Shown: positions 5,782 through 45,322 of the stretch, piece after piece
Layout: each line of letters begins with the position of its first letter
Position numbering within the stretch: position 1 is the first letter of the stretch
Assembly: GCF_015711645.1 (NCBI RefSeq)
Contig: NZ_JABTEX010000001.1
Span: 1,240,001 to 1,304,000, forward strand
Origin: Planomonospora sp. ID82291
GTDB lineage: Bacteria > Actinomycetota > Actinomycetes > Streptosporangiales > Streptosporangiaceae
DNA length: 64,000 nt
Direction: 5' to 3'
The notes under the pieces: generated by a model
What the model saw: only the letters and a program-made list of their open reading frames with translations
What the model was told of the DNA's origin: nothing
Database searches by the model: none
Program-made: the position numbers and the translations under genes

Positions 5782-5899
5782 AATGGCCTCGGTGTCCTTC
5801 GCTGTCGTCTGAAAAAGTTACATGCGGCCGGCGGCCGCTATATGCGGATCCGGGCCCGTCGCGCCTTCCGGCGGTCCGGCCCGTCCCCTTCCCCACGTA

Positions 5900-5918
5900 G
5901 CAGACGTTCGCCGTCTGC
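5900..5918 (-). promoter_or_regulatory. Leader hairpin in the tuf-rpsJ spacer
   Basis: Perfect 7-bp inverted repeat GCAGACG / CGTCTGC with a 5-nt loop, 119 nt upstream of rpsJ. On the minus strand it is followed by TACGTGGGG. The S10 operon promoter must lie in 5782-6025, but I could not choose a convincing -35/-10 pair, so this is recorded only as structure in the probable leader. Confidence 0.3.
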
Positions 5919-6025
5919 GCTTTCTTCCGTGATCTGGCAGTTGCTTCGGTCACTCGATCCGGCCGAAACAGCTGCGAGATCACGGTTCGTGGGTCGCGTG
6001 CGGAGCTGCGGGAGCCCCGCGCGGT

Positions 6026-6062
6026 GCGGCGGCCGGCCTCCTTGCGAGAGGCCGACCGCCGC
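6026..6062 (-). terminator. Terminator after tuf
   Basis: 15-bp stem with a single mismatch (6026-6040 with 6048-6062) and 7-nt loop, 12 nt beyond the tuf stop. It separates the str operon from the S10 operon. Confidence 0.75.
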
Positions 6063-6074
6063 TCCGCGGTCGTA

Positions 6075-7268
<1,194 letters not shown>

Positions 7269-7325
7269 TGGTCTGTCTCCTTAGAGATTCTGACTTGACT
7301 TTCGTCTTTTCACTCGGGTTCGGGG

Positions 7326-7351
7326 AGGCCGGCCCCCTTCGGGACCGGCCT
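7326..7351 (-). terminator. Intercistronic hairpin between fusA and tuf
   Basis: Eleven-pair stem (AGGCCGG core, one G-U pair) with a 4-nt loop, 9 nt after the fusA stop. It may act as a partial terminator or as an mRNA-stability element setting the fusA:tuf ratio; tuf could also have its own promoter in the A/T-richer 7270-7320. Confidence 0.45.
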
Positions 7352-7360
7352 GGCAGGTGA

Positions 7361-9460
7361 CTACTCGCCCCGGACCTTCGCGACGATCTCCTTGGCGATG
7401 TGCTGGGGCACTTCCGCGTAGGAGTCGAACTGCATGCTGAAGCTCGCACGTCCCTGCGTCTTGCTACGGAGGTCGCCCACGTAGCCGAACATCTCAGAGA
7501 GCGGCACGATCGCCTGGACGACGCGGGCGCCTGCGCGCTCGTCCATCGCCCGGATCTGCCCGCGACGACCGTTGAGGTCGCCGATGACGTCACCCATGTA
7601 GTCCTCGGGGCTGATGACCTCGACGGCCATCACCGGCTCCAGGATTACGGCGTCCGCCTTGCGCGCGGCCTCCTTGAAGGCCATCGAGCCAGCGATCTTG
7701 AAGGCCATTTCGGACGAGTCCACCTCGTGGTAGGCGCCGTCCTGCAGGGTGACCTTCACCCCGACCATGGGGTAACCGGCGAGAACACCGAACTCGGCGG
7801 CCTCCTGGGCGCCCGCGTCGACCGACGGGATGTACTCCCGCGGGATGCGGCCACCGGAGACCTTGTTCTCGAACTCGTACCCGTCGTTGCCCTCGCCCAG
7901 CGGCTCAATGTCGATGATGACCTTGGCGAACTGGCCGGAACCACCGGTCTGCTTCTTGTGGGTGTAGTCGACCTTCTCCACCTTGCGGCGGATGGTCTCC
8001 CGGTAGGCCACCTGCGGCCGGCCGACGTTCGCCTCGACCTTGAACTCGCGGCGCATCCGGTCGACGAGGATCTCCAGGTGGAGCTCGCCCATGCCCCAGA
8101 TGACCGTCTGACCGGTCTCCTCGTCACGGCGGACCTGGAAGGACGGGTCCTCCTCGGCCAGCCGCTGGATGGCGGTGCTCAGCTTCTCCTGGTCGCTCTT
8201 CGTCTTGGGCTCGATCGCGACGTTGATGACCGGGGCCGGGAACGTCATCGACTCCAGGACGACCGGGTGGGCCGGGTCGCACAGGGTGTCACCGGTGGTG
8301 GTGTCCTTCAGGCCCATCACGGCGACGATCTGACCGGCGTGCGCGGACGGGCGCTCCTCGCGCTTGTTCGCGTGCATCTGGTAGATCTTGCCGATCCGCT
8401 CCTTCTTGCCCTTCACCGAGTTGACCACCGCGGTGCCGGTCTCGAGCGTGCCCGAGTAGATGCGGATGTAGGTGAGCCGGCCCAGGTGCGGGTCGCTCAT
8501 GATCTTGAAGGCCAGTGCGGAGAACGGCTCGCTCACGTCCGCGTGACGCTCGATGACCTCCGCCTCGTCCTTGACCGAGTGGCCCTTGAAGGCCGGGATG
8601 TCGGTCGGCGCGGGCAGGTAGGCGACGATCGCGTCGAGCAGGGGCTGAACGCCCTTGTTCTTGAACGCGGTGCCGGTCAGGACCGGGTTGATGGCGCTGG
8701 ACAGCGTGGCGCGGCGGATCGCCGCGACCAGCTGCTCCTCGGTGGGCTCGACGCCCTCGAGGAAGAGCTCCATCAGCTCGTCGTCGTTCTCGGCGACGGT
8801 CTCGACGAGCTTGTCACGCCACTCGCGGGCCGCCTCGGCGTGGTCCGCCGGGATGTCCACGGTCTCGTACATCTCACCCTTGGCCGCCTCGGCGCTCCAG
8901 AGCAGGCCCTTCATCTTCACCAGGTCGATGACGCCCTTGAAGCCGGCCTCGACGCCCCAGGGAAGCTGGATGACGGCGGGCGTGGCGTTCAGGCGGTTGA
9001 CCATCATGTCGACGCAGCGGTGGAACTCCGCGCCGACCCGGTCCATCTTGTTGACGAAGCAGATGCGCGGCACGCCGTAGCGGTCGGCCTGACGCCACAC
9101 CGTCTCGGACTGGGGCTCGACGCCCGCCACTCCGTCGAACACGGCGACGGCACCGTCGAGGACACGCAGCGAGCGCTCCACCTCGATGGTGAAGTCCACG
9201 TGACCAGGCGTGTCGATGATGTTGATCGTGTGACCGAGCCATTCGCAGGTGGTCGCGGCGGAGGTGATGGTGATACCACGCTCCTGCTCCTGCTCCATCC
9301 AGTCCATGGTGGCTGCGCCCTCGTGGACTTCACCGATCTTGTACGTGATACCGGTGTAGAACAGGATGCGCTCGGTCGTCGTGGTCTTGCCCGCGTCGAT
9401 GTGGGCCATGATCCCGATGTTGCGGACCTTGGCCAGGTCAAGAGCGGTCATAGTGGCCAC
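7361..9460 (-). CDS. fusA: Elongation factor G
   Basis: 699-residue translocase EF-G. P-loop AHIDAGKT at 19-26, [13 protein letters not shown], and the C-terminal EF-G domains ([33 protein letters not shown]). It drives tRNA-mRNA translocation and, with RRF, ribosome recycling. The gene lies 36 bp after rpsG in the str operon. Length and motifs are standard. Confidence 0.98.
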
Positions 9461-9496
9461 TTCTCTCGCGTCCTCGTCGTCTCGTCGAACCCGCTG

Positions 9497-9967
9497 TTAC
9501 CAGCGGTAGTGGGCGAAGGCCTTGTTGGACTCGGCCATCTTGTGGGTGTCCTCGCGCTTCTTGACGCTCGCGCCGAGGCCGTTGCTGGCGTCGAGGAGCT
9601 CGTTCATGAGGCGCTCGGTCATGGTCTTCTCGCGGCGGGCGCGGGAGTACTGCACCAGCCAACGCAGGGCCAGGGTGGTGCTGCGCGCGGCGCGCACCTC
9701 GACCGGGACCTGGTAGGTCGCGCCACCGACACGGCGGCTGCGCACCTCGAGGGTGGGCTTGACGTTGTCCAGCGCGCGCTTCAGGGTGACGACCGGGTCG
9801 TTGCCGGTCTTCTCCTTGCACCCCTCCAGGGCGCCGTAGACGATCGACTGCGCGATGGAGCGCTTGCCGTCCAGGAGCACCTTGTTGATGAGCGCGGTGA
9901 CCAGCGGCGAGTTGTGGACCGGGTCAGCCATGAGCTGACGACGGCCAGGAGAACCCTTGCGAGGCAT
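9497..9967 (-). CDS. rpsG: 30S ribosomal protein S7
   Basis: 156-residue S7 ([41 protein letters not shown]; ending AFAHYRW). It initiates assembly of the 30S head and contacts tRNA in the E site. The ATG is 2 bp after rpsL, so the pair is translationally coupled. Confidence 0.97.
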
Positions 9968-38348: not shown

Positions 38349-40103
38349 TCAGGACGGACGGTGCAGCACGATGTAGCCGTCCCTTTCGAAGACCGTGCGG
38401 TAACCGCCGCGCAGCGCCTCGTCGACCCGCTGCCGCTGGAGGTCGTGGGCTCCGAACGGGAAGGACCAGCGGTCCACGTCGGCCACGATCCACGGCGCGC
38501 CGCGGGGGTCGGGCCCCCACAACAGCACGGTCGTCCGCGAGCTGAGCGCCGGCCCGACGTGGTTGACGGCTTCGACGACCACCCCGTCCGGCACCACGGC
38601 CACCGCCTGCCGGGCCGCCGCGACGTGCGGATCGCCCGCGTAGAAGGACCACTCGACCAGGTTGCCGAGCGCGAAGCGCGGGATCAGCGTGATGGCGATC
38701 ACGCAGACGGCGACCGCCCAGTGACGGCCCACCGCGTGTCCCGCGTCCCGGCCTTCGACGCGCTCCGCGTCCCGGCCCGGCCCCTCCGGCCCGTCCGCCA
38801 CCTCCGGCCCGTCCGCCACCTCCGGCCCGTCCGCGCCGCGGTCGGTGCTCCGGTCGGTGCTCCGGTCGACGCCCCGCCCGGCGTGCCCGGCCCGCAGGCG
38901 CCGTCCCAGCCGGTCCACCCCGTCCACGCCCGCGCACAGCAGGACCGCCACGATGAAGGCGTTGTAGTGGTGGTCCGGCCCCCACCACTGCGACCGGTCG
39001 CCCAGGAAGCGTTCGGCGATCATCGGAACCGCCATCAAGGTGAGCGGCGAGAGCAGCGCGGTCAGCAGCACCGGCCAGAGGAGGAAGGCCAGGGTGTCGA
39101 CCTTGATCTCCGGGCTGACGAACTGCCACAGCGTCCCCAGCGGGTCGCGCGCCATCCCGGCCACGGCCTCGCCCGCGGTCGCCCCCCACCGGCCGTAGGC
39201 CCAGTGGAAGCCCGTCTCGCCCGAACCCGCCAGCGGCATCAGGACACCGCGGACCGTCACCAGCGCCGCGAGCGCGAGCAGGACGAACGCGGTCCCCTCC
39301 AGCCTGCGCCGTGTGACGAGCAGGTAGAGGCCGAAGCCCGCGACGAGCAGGCCCATGTCCTCCTTGACCAGCAGCAGGCCCAGCGCGGCCAGGACCGCCA
39401 CGCCCCGGCGGCCCGCGTCGAAGCGCTCGATCATGATCGCGCTCAGCAGCGGGACGAAGGCCACCTCGTGGAAGTCGAACCCGGCGGTCTGCGCGACCGG
39501 CCACGAGAGCGCGTAGGCCACCGCGACCAGGTGGGCGGGGACCGGGCCCAGGCGGCGCGCGGCGTAGTGCCAGACGGGGACCGCGGCCAGTGCGAGCAGG
39601 ACGGCCTGGGCGATGATCAGGGTCTGCGGCCCGTCGTGGATCCAGTACAGCGGAGCCAGGACGGCGAGGATCGGCGAGAAGTGGTCGGCGAGCTGGAGGA
39701 AGTCCATGCCCAGGCCGTGGTTCACGCCCACCGCGGGCGCCGTCGGGGGCCCGAAGCCGGCGTAGCCGCGCACCGCCTGGTCGAAGATGACCAGGTCGAA
39801 GATGCTGCTCCGGAAGGTGGCCAGCTTGACCAGCCCGAGTACGGCGTAGGCGTAGGCGGCCAGCAGCACCGTCGCGCCCAGCACCAGGGGGTGGACCCGC
39901 CGCTGCACGAACCCGTCGGCGCGCTCCAGGGCTCCGGCGGCGACTCCGGCGACGCGCCCCCTGAGCCCGGCACCGCCGGAGGCCGGCTCCGCCGCCGCGG
40001 TACCGGTTCCCCCGGCCTCCGCCGCCGCCGTACCGGCCCCCCCGGCCTCTCCGCTCTCCCCTTCGCCGCTCCCCCCGCGCCCGGGGACGGTGTCCGCGCT
40101 CAT
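38349..40103 (-). CDS. DUF2079-like polytopic membrane protein
   Basis: 584-residue protein. The N-terminal 55 residues are Gly/Ala/Glu low complexity, followed by about ten hydrophobic segments (VLGATVLLAAYAYAVLGLVK; TLIIAQAVLLALAAVPVWHY; AFVLLALAALVTVRGVLMPL and others). The FDLVIFDQAVRGYAGFG and LGMDFLQLADHFSPILAVLA motifs are typical of DUF2079/GT-C-like predicted membrane proteins. A loop at about 425-450 carries GPEVAD repeats encoded by an 18-bp DNA repeat (about 38790-38835). Its ATG overlaps the sortase stop (ATGA), so the two are one operon. Function unknown; a GT-C glycosyltransferase role is possible. Confidence 0.7.
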   Translation of the reverse strand: MSADTVPGRGGSGEGESGEAGGAGTAAAEAGGTGTAAAEPASGGAGLRGRVAGVAAGALERADGFVQRRVHPLVLGATVLLAAYAYAVLGLVKLATFRSSIFDLVIFDQAVRGYAGFGPPTAPAVGVNHGLGMDFLQLADHFSPILAVLAPLYWIHDGPQTLIIAQAVLLALAAVPVWHYAARRLGPVPAHLVAVAYALSWPVAQTAGFDFHEVAFVPLLSAIMIERFDAGRRGVAVLAALGLLLVKEDMGLLVAGFGLYLLVTRRRLEGTAFVLLALAALVTVRGVLMPLAGSGETGFHWAYGRWGATAGEAVAGMARDPLGTLWQFVSPEIKVDTLAFLLWPVLLTALLSPLTLMAVPMIAERFLGDRSQWWGPDHHYNAFIVAVLLCAGVDGVDRLGRRLRAGHAGRGVDRSTDRSTDRGADGPEVADGPEVADGPEGPGRDAERVEGRDAGHAVGRHWAVAVCVIAITLIPRFALGNLVEWSFYAGDPHVAAARQAVAVVPDGVVVEAVNHVGPALSSRTTVLLWGPDPRGAPWIVADVDRWSFPFGAHDLQRQRVDEALRGGYRTVFERDGYIVLHRPS

Positions 40104-41056
40104 GTCCGGCGGGTTCCCGTCATCGTCGCGTAGGCGATCACGTTGTCGGTGTAGTGGCCGGTCGCGCGGTCGTAGGTCCCGCCGCAGGTGATCAGGTGCA
40201 GTTGCGGCACGGCCGACTCGCCGTACACCCGCTGCGTCGGGAAGACCGACTTCTCCGCCTGCTCCAGCCCGCCCACGGTGAACACCGCGATCAGGCCGTC
40301 CTGGCGGTGCACCTCGATGACGTCGCCGTTGCGGATCTCGTGGAGGCGGCTGAAGACCGCGCTCCCCCTCCGGGTGTCCTTGTGCCCCAGCATGATCGCC
40401 GGACCCGCCTCCCCCGCGGTGGGGCCCGAGCGGTACCAGCCGACGAGGTTGGGGTCGCTCACCGGCGGCACCTCGATCGCCCCCCGCCGGTCGAGCCCGA
40501 CGGACTCGATCGGCGCGCTGACGCCGAGCTTCGGGATGACCAGGCGGAGCGGGGTCGACGGCTGCAGCGGCGGGGCCGCGGGCAGGCTCGGCTGCGGCGG
40601 CGGCACGGTCGGGGCGGCCTGGAAGTACTGCTCCGCTCCGGCGGCGCTCGGCTGCACCCGCGGCGGCAGCGTGGTCCGCTCGTCGGCGAGGCCGTACTGC
40701 TCGGGCGCGGAGACCATGAGGATCATCCCCACGAGCACCGTGACCACCCCGGCGATCCCGGCCAGGATCAGCACCGACCGCAGCACCCGCCCCCCGGCGG
40801 GGTCGACGTACGGCTCGCCGTACCCGGGCGGCGGATGACCCGGATCGCCGTACCCCAGAGGGAGACCGCCCGCCCGGCCGTACCCCGGGGGGAGGTGGCC
40901 CGCCCGGCCATGCCCCGGAGGGAGGCGGCCCTGGTCGGAATGCCCGTACGGCGGGCGGCCCTGGTCGGGATGCCCGTACGGCTGCGCGGGCCGTCGCGGT
41001 CCTCCGCCCTGCGGGGCGGGCCCCGGCCGCCGGCCGTCCGGAGGGGGCGTGGTCAT
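40100..41056 (-). CDS. Class F-like sortase (cassette 1)
   Basis: 318-residue sortase. Cytoplasmic Pro/Gly/Tyr-rich tail (residues 1-88, repeats of PPGYG type), one membrane helix (about 91-115), a Pro-rich linker, and a sortase barrel: IPKLGVSAPIESVGLD, catalytic His225 (IMLGHKD), catalytic Cys291 (LITCGG), and DNVIAYA. Arg297 in YDRATGHYTDN may be the third catalytic residue. It probably anchors surface proteins to the cell wall; the gene just upstream encodes its likely substrate. ATG start. The next gene overlaps (ATGA). Confidence 0.85.
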   Translation of the reverse strand: MTTPPPDGRRPGPAPQGGGPRRPAQPYGHPDQGRPPYGHSDQGRLPPGHGRAGHLPPGYGRAGGLPLGYGDPGHPPPGYGEPYVDPAGGRVLRSVLILAGIAGVVTVLVGMILMVSAPEQYGLADERTTLPPRVQPSAAGAEQYFQAAPTVPPPQPSLPAAPPLQPSTPLRLVIPKLGVSAPIESVGLDRRGAIEVPPVSDPNLVGWYRSGPTAGEAGPAIMLGHKDTRRGSAVFSRLHEIRNGDVIEVHRQDGLIAVFTVGGLEQAEKSVFPTQRVYGESAVPQLHLITCGGTYDRATGHYTDNVIAYATMTGTRRT

Positions 41057-41069
41057 CCGGCCACCCCGG

Positions 41070-41975
41070 TCAGCCCCGCTGCGCGGTACGGCGCCGCAGC
41101 ACCAGCCCGCCGGCGCCGGCCGCCGCGACCATCAGCGCCCCGCTCAACATGATCATGCGGGCGTCCGGACCGGCCTCGCCGCCGCCGCCCGTGGACGCCG
41201 CGCCCTCGGGCGTCTCCTCGATCTGCCGTGTCTTGGGGCTCTTGACGGTCTTGGTGCTCTTCGTGGGCTCCGGCGTGATGGTGGTGGTGACGGTGATCGT
41301 CGGCTTCGGCGTCGTGGCCGTGGCGGTGGGCGTCGCCGTCGGGGTGCCCGTACCGGTGCCGGCGCCGGAGGGCTTCACCGTGATCAGCAGCCCGGCGGCG
41401 GTGACCTCGGCCGGGGACGCGGGCGTGCACTCGTAGAGGTCGTTGAGGGTCCCGGTGCCGCCGGCCGAGGTCACCGCCAGGATGAAGGAGCTGGGCTGGA
41501 CCCCGATGACGCCGGTGGCCGTCGGCGTCATCGTGATGAGCACGGGGGGAGGCGTCAGCGGGCCGCCCTGGGGCACCGCCGCCGGGGCGGCCGAGACCGT
41601 GGCGAAGACGGCCGCGCTCTGCGTGGGCAGCGGCGAGCCGGTGACCAGTGCCTCCGCCTCGACCACGAGGCGCTCGGTGGCGGCGATGGCCGACGGGGCG
41701 AGCAGGCTCGGCTCGGGGGCGATGGGCTGGCCGATCTTCCAGGTCGCGACGACCGGGCCGTTCGGCGTCGGCGCCAGCGGGCCGGTCAGGTCCATCTGGA
41801 ACTTGTAGGGGCTGGAGGCTCCCCCGGTCTGCGGCTCGCAGTTGTAGGTGACCGGCTTGGGAGCCGCCGCCATCGACGCGATCGCCGGGACGGCTCCGAA
41901 GAGGACACCGGCGCCCACTGCGCCGATGGCGGCCGTCTTGACCGCGACGCGCCTGCGCGTCTTGGACTTCAGCAC
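41070..41975 (-). CDS. Secreted cell-wall/membrane-anchored protein, probable sortase substrate (cassette 1)
   Basis: 301-residue protein from GTG 41975 (GGGGAGAG upstream). The signal peptide is KSKTRRRVAVKTAAIGAVGA and onwards to about residue 38. The mature part begins with a beta-rich domain (VTYNCEPQTGG...), resembling DUF6801-type domains, then a Thr/Pro linker (TPTATPTATATTPKPTITV). The C-terminus has PEGAASTGGGG, a hydrophobic segment and RRRTAQRG: a tripartite sorting signal without LPXTG. The sortase gene follows after 13 bp, indicating a functional pair. A -10-like TAAGAT is visible upstream near 42055. Confidence 0.7.
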   Translation of the reverse strand: MLKSKTRRRVAVKTAAIGAVGAGVLFGAVPAIASMAAAPKPVTYNCEPQTGGASSPYKFQMDLTGPLAPTPNGPVVATWKIGQPIAPEPSLLAPSAIAATERLVVEAEALVTGSPLPTQSAAVFATVSAAPAAVPQGGPLTPPPVLITMTPTATGVIGVQPSSFILAVTSAGGTGTLNDLYECTPASPAEVTAAGLLITVKPSGAGTGTGTPTATPTATATTPKPTITVTTTITPEPTKSTKTVKSPKTRQIEETPEGAASTGGGGEAGPDARMIMLSGALMVAAAGAGGLVLRRRTAQRG

Positions 41976-42159
41976 GGTCTCTCCCCGGTTGGATGAGGTT
42001 GCGCGGTGGGGCGGTCGCCCGGGATGCCCACCGATGGTCAAGTCGTGTCATAGATCTTATGGAGACCGACCGGCAAGCGGAAACATCTCGGCAAAACGGG
42101 CAAAAATTCTCCCGCGTCCCAGACCTCCCCCTTCTCACCGTCCGCTGGACGATCCTCAA

Positions 42160-42348
42160 ATGGTCGACGAAGCTCCTCCGCAGGAGGCGACGCCGTGGCA
42201 GGGAGAGCGGAAGCGGCCGTGCATGACGGCGCGGACGGGTCGGTCGTCTCAGGGCGTGGAGACTGCGGGGATGCCCGGGCGTGAGGGGCCCGAGCCGCAC
42301 GGCATGCGGCGGCAGGAAGACCGGAGCCACCCGACTCCACACTTTTGA
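42160..42348 (+). CDS. Possible small ORF upstream of the PIN gene (62 aa)
   Basis: An open frame from ATG 42160 (MVDEAPPQEATPWQGERKRP) whose TGA stop overlaps the TTG start of the PIN protein (TTGA). The spacing is what a toxin-antitoxin pair would show, but the product is polar, low in hydrophobic residues and matches no antitoxin fold I recognise. It may be a degraded antitoxin or spurious. 41976-42159 contains only the divergent promoter region. Confidence 0.25.
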   Translation: MVDEAPPQEATPWQGERKRPCMTARTGRSSQGVETAGMPGREGPEPHGMRRQEDRSHPTPHF

Positions 42349-42821
42349 TCATTGTCTACGACACGGGGATGTTGATCGCTCTCGCCGACCGCAAGGCCAA
42401 GGCCGTGCGACTGCACGACGGTCTCAAGGCCGCACCGCACCGTGCGGTCGTGCTGGGTCCCGTCCTGACTCAGGTCTGGCGTCCGGCTCCGACTCTGGTT
42501 CACGCCATCGCCGCCTCGCTACGTGACTGCACCGTTCCCCAGGCACGGGGTTCCGCTCCGGCGCTCCGCCCGGCAGCGGCGGGGCAGCCCACCTGCCTGA
42601 TGTGCACGACCGCACCGGACCTCGCCGACTGGCAGCGGATCGGAGGCGCTCTCGGCAGGGCCGGACTACCGCCGAAGAAGCGTCCGGACGCGGTCGACGC
42701 CCTGGTGGCACTGACCGCCGCACGTCACGGCAGTGCCGTGGTGCTCACCAGCGACCCCGAGGACATGGCCGCCTGTCTGAAGGCACTCGACGCGCAAGAC
42801 GTACGTCTCGTCACGGTGTGA
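42345..42821 (+). CDS. PIN-domain protein (VapC-like)
   Basis: 158-residue protein, TTG start. PIN-fold features: Asp6 in IIVYDTGMLIALAD, Asp115/Asp118 in KKRPDAVDALVALTAARHG and Asp137 in VVLTSDPEDMAAC. The residue usually Glu in the second motif is Gln43 (VLTQVWR), a form that appears in actinobacterial PIN proteins. PIN domains are Mg-dependent ribonucleases, often toxins. The gene lies alone on the plus strand between two sortase cassettes and has no recognisable antitoxin partner. Confidence 0.65.
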   Translation: MIIVYDTGMLIALADRKAKAVRLHDGLKAAPHRAVVLGPVLTQVWRPAPTLVHAIAASLRDCTVPQARGSAPALRPAAAGQPTCLMCTTAPDLADWQRIGGALGRAGLPPKKRPDAVDALVALTAARHGSAVVLTSDPEDMAACLKALDAQDVRLVTV

Positions 42822-42830
42822 ACGCCCGGG

Positions 42831-43811
42831 TCAGCGGGAGGCTGCCCTGGCCTTGCCGGTGGCCGAGAGGGTCGCGTAGACGATGATGTTGTCGGTGTAG
42901 TGGCCGGTCTTCTGGTTGAGCACGCCGCCGCAGGTGATCAGGCGCAGGGTCGCCTCACCGGTGTTGCCGTAGACCCGCTTCGACGGGAAGGCCTGCTTGC
43001 TGACCTGCTCGACCCCGTCGACGGTGAACTCCGCCACGGCCCCGTCCGAACGCGAGACCTTGATCTTGTCTCCGCGCCGGAGTTCCTTCAGCCGGACGAA
43101 GACCCCGGCCTTGCCGTTGCCGTTGACGTGGCCGAGGACGACCGCGGGCCCCTGCTGGCCGGGGACGGGACCGTGCTTGTACCAGCCCGCCTGGTGGAGC
43201 CTGGTCAGCGGAGGGGTCTGGACCCGCTGCCTCTTGTCGATCCCGAGCGTCATCAGCGACGACAGCACACCGATCTTGGGGATGGCGATCCTGCGCGGGG
43301 TCGCCCCCTCGCTCGTGAGCGGCTCCGGCGGCATCACGACGGGCAGCGGCGGCGCGGCCGTGGGCGCGGCGGCCGTCAGCGGCGTCTCCAGCCCGCCCGG
43401 TCCCACCTCGGCGGGTGCCCCCGCCGCGCCCTGGTCCTGCGGCTGGACGGGCGGCGGCTGGTTCTGCGCCGCCGCCTGGGGCACCGGAGGCCCGTACATC
43501 TCCTCCTCGGAGAGCGGGGCCAGGTAGGCCAGCAGCCCGGCCATGACCATCGCCACCCCGCCCAGCGACCCGGCGACCAGGAGGGAGGGGAGCAGCCACC
43601 TCCTGCCCCCGCCGGCCGCGGGCGCGCCTCCCGGGGGGACAGGGCCACCGCCCGGGTAGCCGGAGCCACCGCCCGAATAGCCGGAAGCACCGCCCGGATG
43701 GGCGGAAGCACCGCCCGGATGGGCGGAGCCGACACCCGGATAGGCGGAACCGTTCTCCGGAAGGGGGCCGGGCCCCTCCTGCGGCGACTCCGGATGCGTT
43801 CCGGCGCCCAT
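42831..43811 (-). CDS. Class F-like sortase (cassette 2)
   Basis: 326-residue sortase homologous to the gene at 40100. Low-complexity Gly/Ser/Pro/Tyr cytoplasmic tail (residues 1-69), membrane helix (about 72-98), Pro-rich linker, then IPKIGVLSSLMTLGID, His228 (VVLGHVNGNG), Cys294 (LITCGG) and DNIIVYA. The Arg seen in the first sortase after LITCGG is Gln300 here, so the catalytic arginine is not obvious. ATG start 2 bp after the stop of the upstream surface protein, its probable substrate. Confidence 0.85.
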   Translation of the reverse strand: MGAGTHPESPQEGPGPLPENGSAYPGVGSAHPGGASAHPGGASGYSGGGSGYPGGGPVPPGGAPAAGGGRRWLLPSLLVAGSLGGVAMVMAGLLAYLAPLSEEEMYGPPVPQAAAQNQPPPVQPQDQGAAGAPAEVGPGGLETPLTAAAPTAAPPLPVVMPPEPLTSEGATPRRIAIPKIGVLSSLMTLGIDKRQRVQTPPLTRLHQAGWYKHGPVPGQQGPAVVLGHVNGNGKAGVFVRLKELRRGDKIKVSRSDGAVAEFTVDGVEQVSKQAFPSKRVYGNTGEATLRLITCGGVLNQKTGHYTDNIIVYATLSATGKARAASR

Positions 43812-43813
43812 GC

Positions 43814-45322
43814 CTACTCTCCGCCCCGCGCGTGCCCCGCCCGGCGCCGGACGAGCACCACGCCGCCCAGCATCCCGCCGAAGAGCATGGCCGACCCGGC
43901 TCCGACGAGGCCCAGCCCGGAACGTTCACCGGGCCGGCCGCCCGTGTCCGCGCCGCCCTGCGGCGTCACCACGACCTGGGGGGTGGTGGGCGTCGCCCGG
44001 GTCGGCGTGACGGTGACGGTGGCGGTCGTGGTCGGCTTGGGCGTGGTGGCCTTGGCGGAGGTGGAGGACGAGGCACTCTTGCTCGTCCCCGGGGTCGGAC
44101 CGGTTCCTCCGGAGGTAGGCGTGACGCAGGTGGGCGTCGGAGTGGACGAGGGGGTGGACAAAGGACTGCCCGTGGCCGACGTGGTGGGGCCGGGAGTGCA
44201 CGTCGGCGGAACCCTGGTGCCGGTGGACGTCGGCGTGGAGGTCGGTGTGGACGTGGGGGTCGAGGTCGGCGAGCCGGTCATCGTGGGGGTCGGCGAGCCG
44301 GTCATCGTGGGGGTCGGCGACATCGTCGTGCCAGCCTCACCGATGGTGACCTCCACCGCCACCGGCTTGCTGACGAGCCTGCATACGGAGCGGTACCAGT
44401 GCGGCGGACCCGCCAGTTCCTCCGTGACGACCCGGAAGGCGTCCAACTGGGTCCACTTGCCATCACCGCCGTCGTCCATGATCTCGATGGTGTGCGGACC
44501 GTAGCTGAGACCGCGGAAGCTCCAGAGGGTCTGCCCGCCCTGGGTGGAGGAGTTCGTCTGCTCCCCGTTCTCCTCCTTCGACGCGTCGACGGAGGCCGGC
44601 GTGGCCGCCTTGCCATCGATCTTGAACCAGACCTTGCCCGCGTCCTTGTCGCGCCGGGCGATGTAGTCGATGCCGGTGCCGGAGAACTGCATGAAGGCGC
44701 TGTCGCCCTCATTCTTCGTACGGTGGACGTCCCGCTGATAGTCGTTGTGGTGCGGCGGTTGGTCGCTCAGGTCGTCCCATCCGGCCACCCCGCCGTACTT
44801 CACCGCCGAATCGTCGTCGTTGACCATCCTCTCGCCCGCAGGCGGCGTGTAGTCGACGAACAACCGCTCCGGTACAAGGACGACCTTCGCCGCCCGGGTG
44901 GTCTGCGCGGCGTCGGAGATCGTCTCCGGAAGTTCCAGGACGTCGTCCGACTGGTCGGCGCTCCCGACCGGTTGGAGGATGCCCTGCCAGGCGCCGGAGA
45001 GCTGCACGTTGCCGGTAACCGTGACCTTTCCTCCGGAGGCGGCGCCCTGCGGGGTGCTGAACTTGGTCGTGCCTCCGGTGTACGCGAGGTTCCATCCGAT
45101 GCTCAGCGGGTCACCGACCGACAGCACCGTGGGGATCGACAGCTTGGTCTGCAGGCGCACCGCGCCCTCCCTGGCCATTCCCCCGGTGCACTTGTAATCG
45201 ATGACGAACTCGGCGTTGTTCGCGGAGGCCGTGCCGGAGGACAGCACGACCAGCGCGCCGCTCAGCAGGCCCAGCATCGGGACCGCGACCGCCGTACGGA
45301 GTCCTGTCGTCCACCGCGCCAC
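43814..45322 (-). CDS. Large secreted surface protein, probable sortase substrate (cassette 2)
   Basis: 502-residue protein with GTG start and a signal peptide (about 1-34). Domain 1 (about 36-150) is beta-rich with an IDYKCTGG start like the other substrate. Domain 2 (about 205-300, DSAFMQFSGTGIDYIARR; KVWFKIDG; LSYGPHTIEIMDDGG) resembles the beta-sandwich carbohydrate-binding-like domains of actinobacterial secreted proteins. A Ser/Thr/Pro repeat linker (STPTSTPTSTPTSTG) leads to PQGGADTGGR, a hydrophobic helix and RRRAGHARGGE. A 24-bp DNA repeat lies in the linker (44278-44325). Likely exposed on the cell wall and linked by the neighbouring sortase. Confidence 0.7.
   Translation of the reverse strand: MARWTTGLRTAVAVPMLGLLSGALVVLSSGTASANNAEFVIDYKCTGGMAREGAVRLQTKLSIPTVLSVGDPLSIGWNLAYTGGTTKFSTPQGAASGGKVTVTGNVQLSGAWQGILQPVGSADQSDDVLELPETISDAAQTTRAAKVVLVPERLFVDYTPPAGERMVNDDDSAVKYGGVAGWDDLSDQPPHHNDYQRDVHRTKNEGDSAFMQFSGTGIDYIARRDKDAGKVWFKIDGKAATPASVDASKEENGEQTNSSTQGGQTLWSFRGLSYGPHTIEIMDDGGDGKWTQLDAFRVVTEELAGPPHWYRSVCRLVSKPVAVEVTIGEAGTTMSPTPTMTGSPTPTMTGSPTSTPTSTPTSTPTSTGTRVPPTCTPGPTTSATGSPLSTPSSTPTPTCVTPTSGGTGPTPGTSKSASSSTSAKATTPKPTTTATVTVTPTRATPTTPQVVVTPQGGADTGGRPGERSGLGLVGAGSAMLFGGMLGGVVLVRRRAGHARGGE

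Follow-up and report, generated by a model that had tools for sequence, protein, structure and literature searches.

In the available sections of a 2016 paper, recognition signals are given for sortase classes A to E and none for class F (PMC5148588), and the 2026 study of Actinoplanes missouriensis, in the part available, calls the physiological roles of class F sortases unknown (PMC13251363). Among the described systems, the class E sortases SrtE1 and SrtE2 of Streptomyces coelicolor likewise come from an actinobacterium and use a non-LPXTG signal, LAXTG, with Ala at the Pro position; class E signals keep the Leu and the enzymes keep their catalytic Arg (PMC5148588). In actinobacterial class F, Asn is reported to replace that catalytic Arg (PMC6998099, available in part), and the class F enzyme SrtF of Cutibacterium acnes acts on LPQTGE (PMC7451113, likewise). 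Two A. missouriensis proteins, AMIS_11010 and AMIS_36440, are encoded beside srtF1 and srtF4 and, compared here by description only, have a signal peptide, a C-terminal transmembrane region, and a basic tail; they are named as possible substrates but were set aside because no pentapeptide was found (PMC13251363). Here, we analyze two cassettes, each made up of a secreted protein and a class F sortase, in a 64,000-nucleotide stretch of the Planomonospora sp. ID82291 genome (the window; G000:C7:1240001-1304000 of a 7.58-Mb genome). The closest named relative found was Planomonospora parontospora (L276), with 95% identity to the second sortase of the window, SrtF2, over 154 domain residues.

Both cassettes lie on the minus strand between positions 40100 and 45322, where the first-pass annotation of the sequence had proposed two pairs of a secreted protein and a sortase and where we found all of the parts. 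The gene order is the same in each: the substrate comes first and the class F sortase follows. Substrate 2 (502 amino acids; positions 43814 to 45322) has a signal-peptide-like start, a beta domain with Y-x-C, a Pro/Thr/Ser-rich linker, and a sorting signal with the motif PQGGADTGG (43937 to 43963) followed by a hydrophobic stretch and an RRR tail. SrtF2 (326 amino acids; 42831 to 43811) starts 2 bases past the substrate 2 stop. Substrate 1 (301 amino acids; 41070 to 41975) is built similarly, with a signal-peptide-like start, a Y-x-C beta domain, a Thr/Pro linker, and the motif PEGAASTGG (41184 to 41210) ahead of its own hydrophobic stretch and RRR tail; SrtF1 (318 amino acids; 40100 to 41056) starts 13 bases past its stop. 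The start of substrate 1 is most likely the GTG at 41975 (VLKSKTRRR...) and not the TTG upstream at 42041, because many homologues begin similarly (VLKSKARRR). Judged by sequence and simple hydropathy scoring, both substrates follow the general plan of sortase substrates, that is, a signal peptide, a TG-type motif, a hydrophobic stretch, and a basic tail. The shared three-part C-terminal signal described in the annotation is therefore present in both proteins. It also stands in the place of LPXTG, as had been proposed: neither substrate begins its pentapeptide with Leu, and neither matches the LPXTG model TIGR01167 at E values up to 1. The partners of the window enzymes thus differ from the LPQTGE used by C. 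acnes SrtF and from the Leu-containing signals of class E.

With the gene order, the domains, the motif and its conservation, the link to class F, and common descent read from sequence comparisons, we consider it very likely that each cassette forms a cell-wall anchoring unit of one enzyme and one substrate that works through P-x-G-[AG]-A-x-T-G, with cleavage, wall linkage, and specificity as predicted steps. An N-terminal signal peptide would direct export of the substrate, which would stay anchored in the membrane through the hydrophobic stretch and Arg tail at its C terminus. Close to the outer face of the membrane, the adjoining membrane-bound class F sortase would then recognize P-x-G-[AG]-A-x-T-G; as in other sortases, its Cys would cut after the Thr, and the enzyme would transfer the cut protein to a peptidoglycan precursor. 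In the predicted signal, Gly or Ala takes the Leu place of LPXTG, and Val, Ala, or Pro takes its Pro place.

Membership in class F was defined by the curated cut-off of NCBIfam NF033748 (166 bits). SrtF1 and SrtF2 score 198.2 and 199.3 bits, respectively, and because both scores exceed the cut-off, the two enzymes, previously annotated as class F-like, are class F proper; both also match PF04203. Both show the His, Cys, and Asn residues typical of class F. The catalytic His and Cys are present in both, and across 232 aligned class F domains (from the samples described below) the His is found in 99% and the Cys in 100%, the latter by construction, as domains were excised around TC or SC and the 2 of 234 matches with neither were left out. 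An Asn just before the last strand is found in SrtF1, in SrtF2, and in 93% of the 232 domains. Class E sortases have an Arg before the corresponding strand, a match made by strand register, with a MAFFT gap between the two columns. A PDB sequence search with SrtF2 gave no match at E values up to 0.001, and searching with a profile built from 11 SrtF2-type domains brought up sortases only weakly (best E = 0.0069). The window genome encodes five class F sortases over the cut-off, and next to each one is a tail-anchored partner whose signal is of the TGG type. No match to class E in this genome exceeds the cut-off; 24 of 40 family genomes have one that does. A further, sixth sortase-like match lies outside the window (G000:C7:21785-22186; L054). 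It scores 80 bits and has no recognizable TC active-site motif in frame, no tail-anchored neighbor was found for it, and it may be degraded or divergent.

We then asked how general the signal is. The family sample comprised 60 genomes, from which 145 class F matches were kept of 150 listed (5 weak or partial ones were dropped). The phylum sample comprised 89 class F matches examined among the matches listed, 29 with ready loci and 60 that were picked mostly from outside a well-represented family (f3), and it is not a random sample. Together, these make 234 class F matches, some of them below the class F cut-off. Partners were defined as upstream open reading frames (ORFs) with a C-terminal hydrophobic stretch and a basic tail; the motif was not used in the screen. 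Among the matches listed, such an ORF was found for 121 of 145 class F matches in the family and for 191 of 234 in family and phylum combined. The motif, which the first-pass annotation had suggested looking for beside other class F sortases, was not missing there: 176 of the 191 upstream ORFs fit the loose motif (a permissive form) and 93 fit the strict motif PxG[AG][AVPM]xTG, compared to 7 and 2, respectively, of 29 control ORFs (the other same-strand, tail-anchored ORFs of the same loci). By eye, several of the seven control ORFs with the loose motif are further substrates themselves. On the basis of these proportions, the predicted signal is general to class F neighbors in the sampled phylum and is not private to the window pair. 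The earlier proposal of a dedicated recognition motif is thus borne out as regards a shared motif that goes with class F but not as regards its exclusivity to this pair, since the signal is class-wide and a related model, NF058571, already exists.

The 121 family partners (among the matches listed) were divided into 76 with PxG[AG][AVPM]xTG, 14 with PxGxxx[TA]G, 22 with [AG]Px[TA]GG, 8 classed as other, and 1 labeled LPxTG-like, a loose-pattern label for a signal that actually reads GPAPATGDG. By eye, those classed as other mostly have a TG, SG, or MG variant, and the one in G002:C172 does not. An L[PA]xTG string occurs in 3 of the 191 partners, by eye never at the motif position. In 180 parsed signals, the residue before the presumed cut is T in 131, A in 47, and S in 2, proportions of T and A that are approximate given a few misparsed rows (for example, L056, L064, L150, and L152); the residue after the presumed cut is G in all 180. 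Two positions before the T/A/S, we found V in 64, A in 51, and P in 41, and three positions before it, G in 103 and A in 51; by these counts, the Leu place of LPXTG is mostly Gly or Ala. The nine-residue pattern P-x-G-[AG]-A-x-T-G-G put forward earlier does occur in both window substrates, but across the sampled signals it is one branch of a wider putative signal, in which T often gives way to A and some clades have other residues instead of P-x-G. One class F clade of the sortase tree (L056 and 19 other rows) has partners that mostly end in APxAGGGG, with A replacing T; a nested subclade that includes the window genome has T, and at least one partner of the clade has a lipoprotein-like N terminus. 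On the whole tree, T versus A requires 21 changes compared to a shuffled mean of ∼42, a clustering that shows only co-inheritance.

The NCBIfam model NF058571 (GVDTG_CTERM, GVDTG sorting domain-containing protein; curated cut-off, 29 bits) resembles the window signals in being a C-terminal sorting signal by its name and by the stretch that it matches. Substrate 1 matches all 44 positions of the model at 21.5 bits (E = 2.1e-4), which is below the cut-off, and apparent substrate 1 orthologues in four genomes (G003, G004, G033, and G056) are over it. Among the matches listed for 296 phylum genomes, over-cut-off NF058571 matches were found in 21 of the 37 genomes with an over-cut-off class F match and in 1 of the 259 without (Fisher P = 3.6e-21, kinship not corrected). 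The lone exception, G273, does contain a class F match, at 145 bits and below the cut-off. At E values up to 0.001, the corresponding frequencies were 29 of 37 and 16 of 259. In the family sample, over-cut-off matches occurred in 22 of 49 genomes with class F and 0 of 11 without (P = 0.005; matches listed). Across the two samples, 50 of 57 over-cut-off NF058571 matches listed have a class F match no more than 2 kb away; the 57 exclude rows whose score reaches the cut-off only through repeats in a single frame, among them two otherwise uncounted ORFs (G004:C16 and G027:C7) that are both near a class F match. Branches of class F partners such as APxAGGGG and PTRVDAG depart from the GVDTG name. 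With a GVDTG domain already in NCBIfam, the motif itself is less novel. A literature search for "GVDTG" returned nothing on topic, as judged by title, and no class F motif of this kind was found stated in the available parts of the literature searched.

Five Acrocarpospora loci (L307, L318, L321, L324, and L334) contain a second sortase after the class F one. The partner of the second sortase carries L[PA]KTG (ending L[PA]KTGDG) in all five loci, whereas the class F partner carries PLGGAATG in four of them; no class F partner was detected in L334. In L324, where the two sortases stand in a row at 5793-9550, the first enzyme is class F and the second is class E by model, and the other four loci were judged by eye. 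The class E partner in L324 passes the LPXTG anchor cut-off, whereas the class F partner is unmatched by that model.

The substrates themselves are related in their beta domains. In agreement with the Y-x-C assigned to both by the annotation, an alignment of 36 substrate 1 domains shows Y and C without variation, and in 37 substrate 2 domains the C is invariant and the Y is present in at least 90%. A second invariant Cys is found near the domain end in both sets. Within the beta domain of substrate 2, an insert at positions 44411 to 44842 (minus strand) has, in an AlphaFold2 model (pLDDT 94.3), the jelly-roll fold of carbohydrate-binding modules (CBMs) and is CBM35/CBM6-like. Its best PDB match is a two-domain mannan esterase, at the C-terminal residues 233-374 (Z = 14.2; root mean square deviation [rmsd], 2.8; 133 residues), and comparison with a CBM35 gave a Z of 13.3. 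Pfam CE2_N was found in 19 of 37 substrate 2 homologues (E up to 0.1), window substrate 2 not among them, and for the beta domain, DUF6801 gave matches in 5 of 37 (E up to 0.1; best, 0.0011) and none in the window protein. Because of its carbohydrate-binding-like module, these data suggest that substrate 2 displays a putative glycan-binding domain at the cell surface. For the substrate 1 model, Foldseek returned nothing at E values up to 0.001. A further fold search matched it to a putative membrane-anchored protein of Corynebacterium diphtheriae (Z = 9.0; rmsd, 4.6; 151 residues), to be read against a Z of 7.1 for the next rows and typical best values of 7 to 8 for models without a clear match.

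In a FastTree tree of 180 sortase domains, the SrtF1 and SrtF2 clades (19 rows each; support of 99 and 95, respectively) are sisters with a support of 82. The domains of substrates 1 and 2 are homologous by profile comparison (hhalign probability, 96.8; E = 2.6e-10). Because the sortases are sisters and the substrate domains are homologous (Y-x-C, second Cys, and profile), one substrate-sortase unit was probably duplicated long ago, and one copy gained or kept the sugar-binding-like module. In 17 of 60 family genomes (among the matches listed), a single fetched stretch contains two class F matches, and two same-strand class F sortases were found in 55 of 78 named loci, which had been gathered with a SrtF2-type query. 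Of the co-evolved pair envisaged in the annotation, what the tree and hhalign support is the co-inheritance of an old duplicate; that the two pairs are also mutually specific is a prediction.

Such specificity would be lacking if SrtF1 and SrtF2 were interchangeable, both accepting both signals, with the pair redundant. This alternative is compatible with the anchoring units proposed above, and we judge its chances to be a little short of even. PEGAASTGG and PQGGADTGG are very alike, and the two enzymes are sisters, but both copies have been kept in many genera. Moreover, the residue after TG is E in the first cassette of 36 and G in the second cassette of 34 of the 49 named loci with both signals parsed (a few of which are probably not the same pair), so the signals of the two cassettes tend to differ; in the window, both read TGG and provide no evidence on this point. 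A broader and tentative reading, which we think would rather fail than hold, is that actinobacterial class F is a Leu-independent, Arg-less sortase branch that works in private pairs of one enzyme and one adjacent substrate, with several mutually insulated signals able to run in parallel in one cell and the window tandem, duplicated long ago, having kept its two channels apart. Under that doubtful reading, the candidate insulated signals would be P-x-G-[AG]-A-x-TG-E, P-x-G-[AG]-A-x-TG-G, APxAGGGG, and PTRVDAG.

A different possibility is that class F sortases cut the signal but release the protein by hydrolysis or attach it to an acceptor that is not peptidoglycan. It arises because Asn replaces the catalytic Arg: the change is stated for class F in the accessible part of PMC6998099, and it agrees with the Asn found here in 93% of 232 domains at the strand where, by register, class E has its Arg. 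However, C. acnes SrtF, compared by description only, moves LPQTGE peptides onto oligo-glycine acceptors (PMC7451113, as far as available), and we regard release or another acceptor as unlikely. Least probable of all, to a degree that we would give it little weight, is a reading in which the substrates are nothing more than tail-anchored membrane proteins, with the Gly-rich segment only a juxtamembrane linker and other proteins as the targets of the sortases: Actinobacteria do have tail-anchored exported proteins, predicted sortase substrates included (PMC10924467, in part), and the A. missouriensis class F quadruple mutant has no phenotype (PMC13251363, in part), but the strict motif marks 93 of 191 class F neighbors listed and 2 of 29 other tail-anchored ORFs, over-cut-off GVDTG matches track class F, the partner of the second Acrocarpospora sortase carries L[PA]KTG instead, and the window genome lacks other obvious substrates because neither of the two places that pass the TIGR01167 cut-off has a clear LPXTG.

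Several observations weigh against the proposal that the cassettes are cell-wall anchoring units using this signal. Adjacency to a sortase is not proof that the neighbor is its substrate, and 43 of the 234 class F matches listed have no upstream tail-anchored ORF (for 9 of these 43, a motif-bearing ORF lies nearby on either strand). Class F is not uniform, because C. acnes SrtF works on LPQTGE (PMC7451113), and its chemistry may differ, because Asn is reported in place of the catalytic Arg. According to the part of the study available, A. missouriensis lacking all four of its class F sortases showed no phenotype in the conditions examined there (PMC13251363). Substrate 2 gave no match to NF058571 at E values up to 1; with substrate 1 below the cut-off, neither window substrate is a GVDTG_CTERM member by the curated test. 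At the genome level, 16 of the 37 phylum genomes with class F have no over-cut-off NF058571 match, 8 of them none at E values up to 0.001, and the 16 of 259 matched at that threshold have no over-cut-off class F. Finally, of 12 class E loci, 11 were without an L[PA]xTG neighbor and 1 had an opposite-strand GLPFTG protein; because this 12-locus test failed, the contrast between class E and class F signals rests on the five Acrocarpospora loci.

Two other ORFs border the cassettes. Between them, on the plus strand at positions 42345 to 42821, is a PIN-domain-like ORF (PF01850, E = 0.0021, below the cut-off) that lies outside the system; a homologue was found in 1 of the 78 named loci, that of P. 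parontospora (L276), with 90% identity. At positions 38349 to 40103, a 584-amino-acid ORF shares 4 bases with the end of SrtF1 and may therefore be cotranscribed with cassette 1; by eye, its product resembles a multi-pass membrane protein.

The role and the signal of class F sortases are unsettled, and a concrete signal with a named partner for each enzyme makes both directly testable. Class F pairs could yield peptide ligases orthogonal to SrtA. For the actinobacteria themselves, the signal would add overlooked surface proteins to their genomes.

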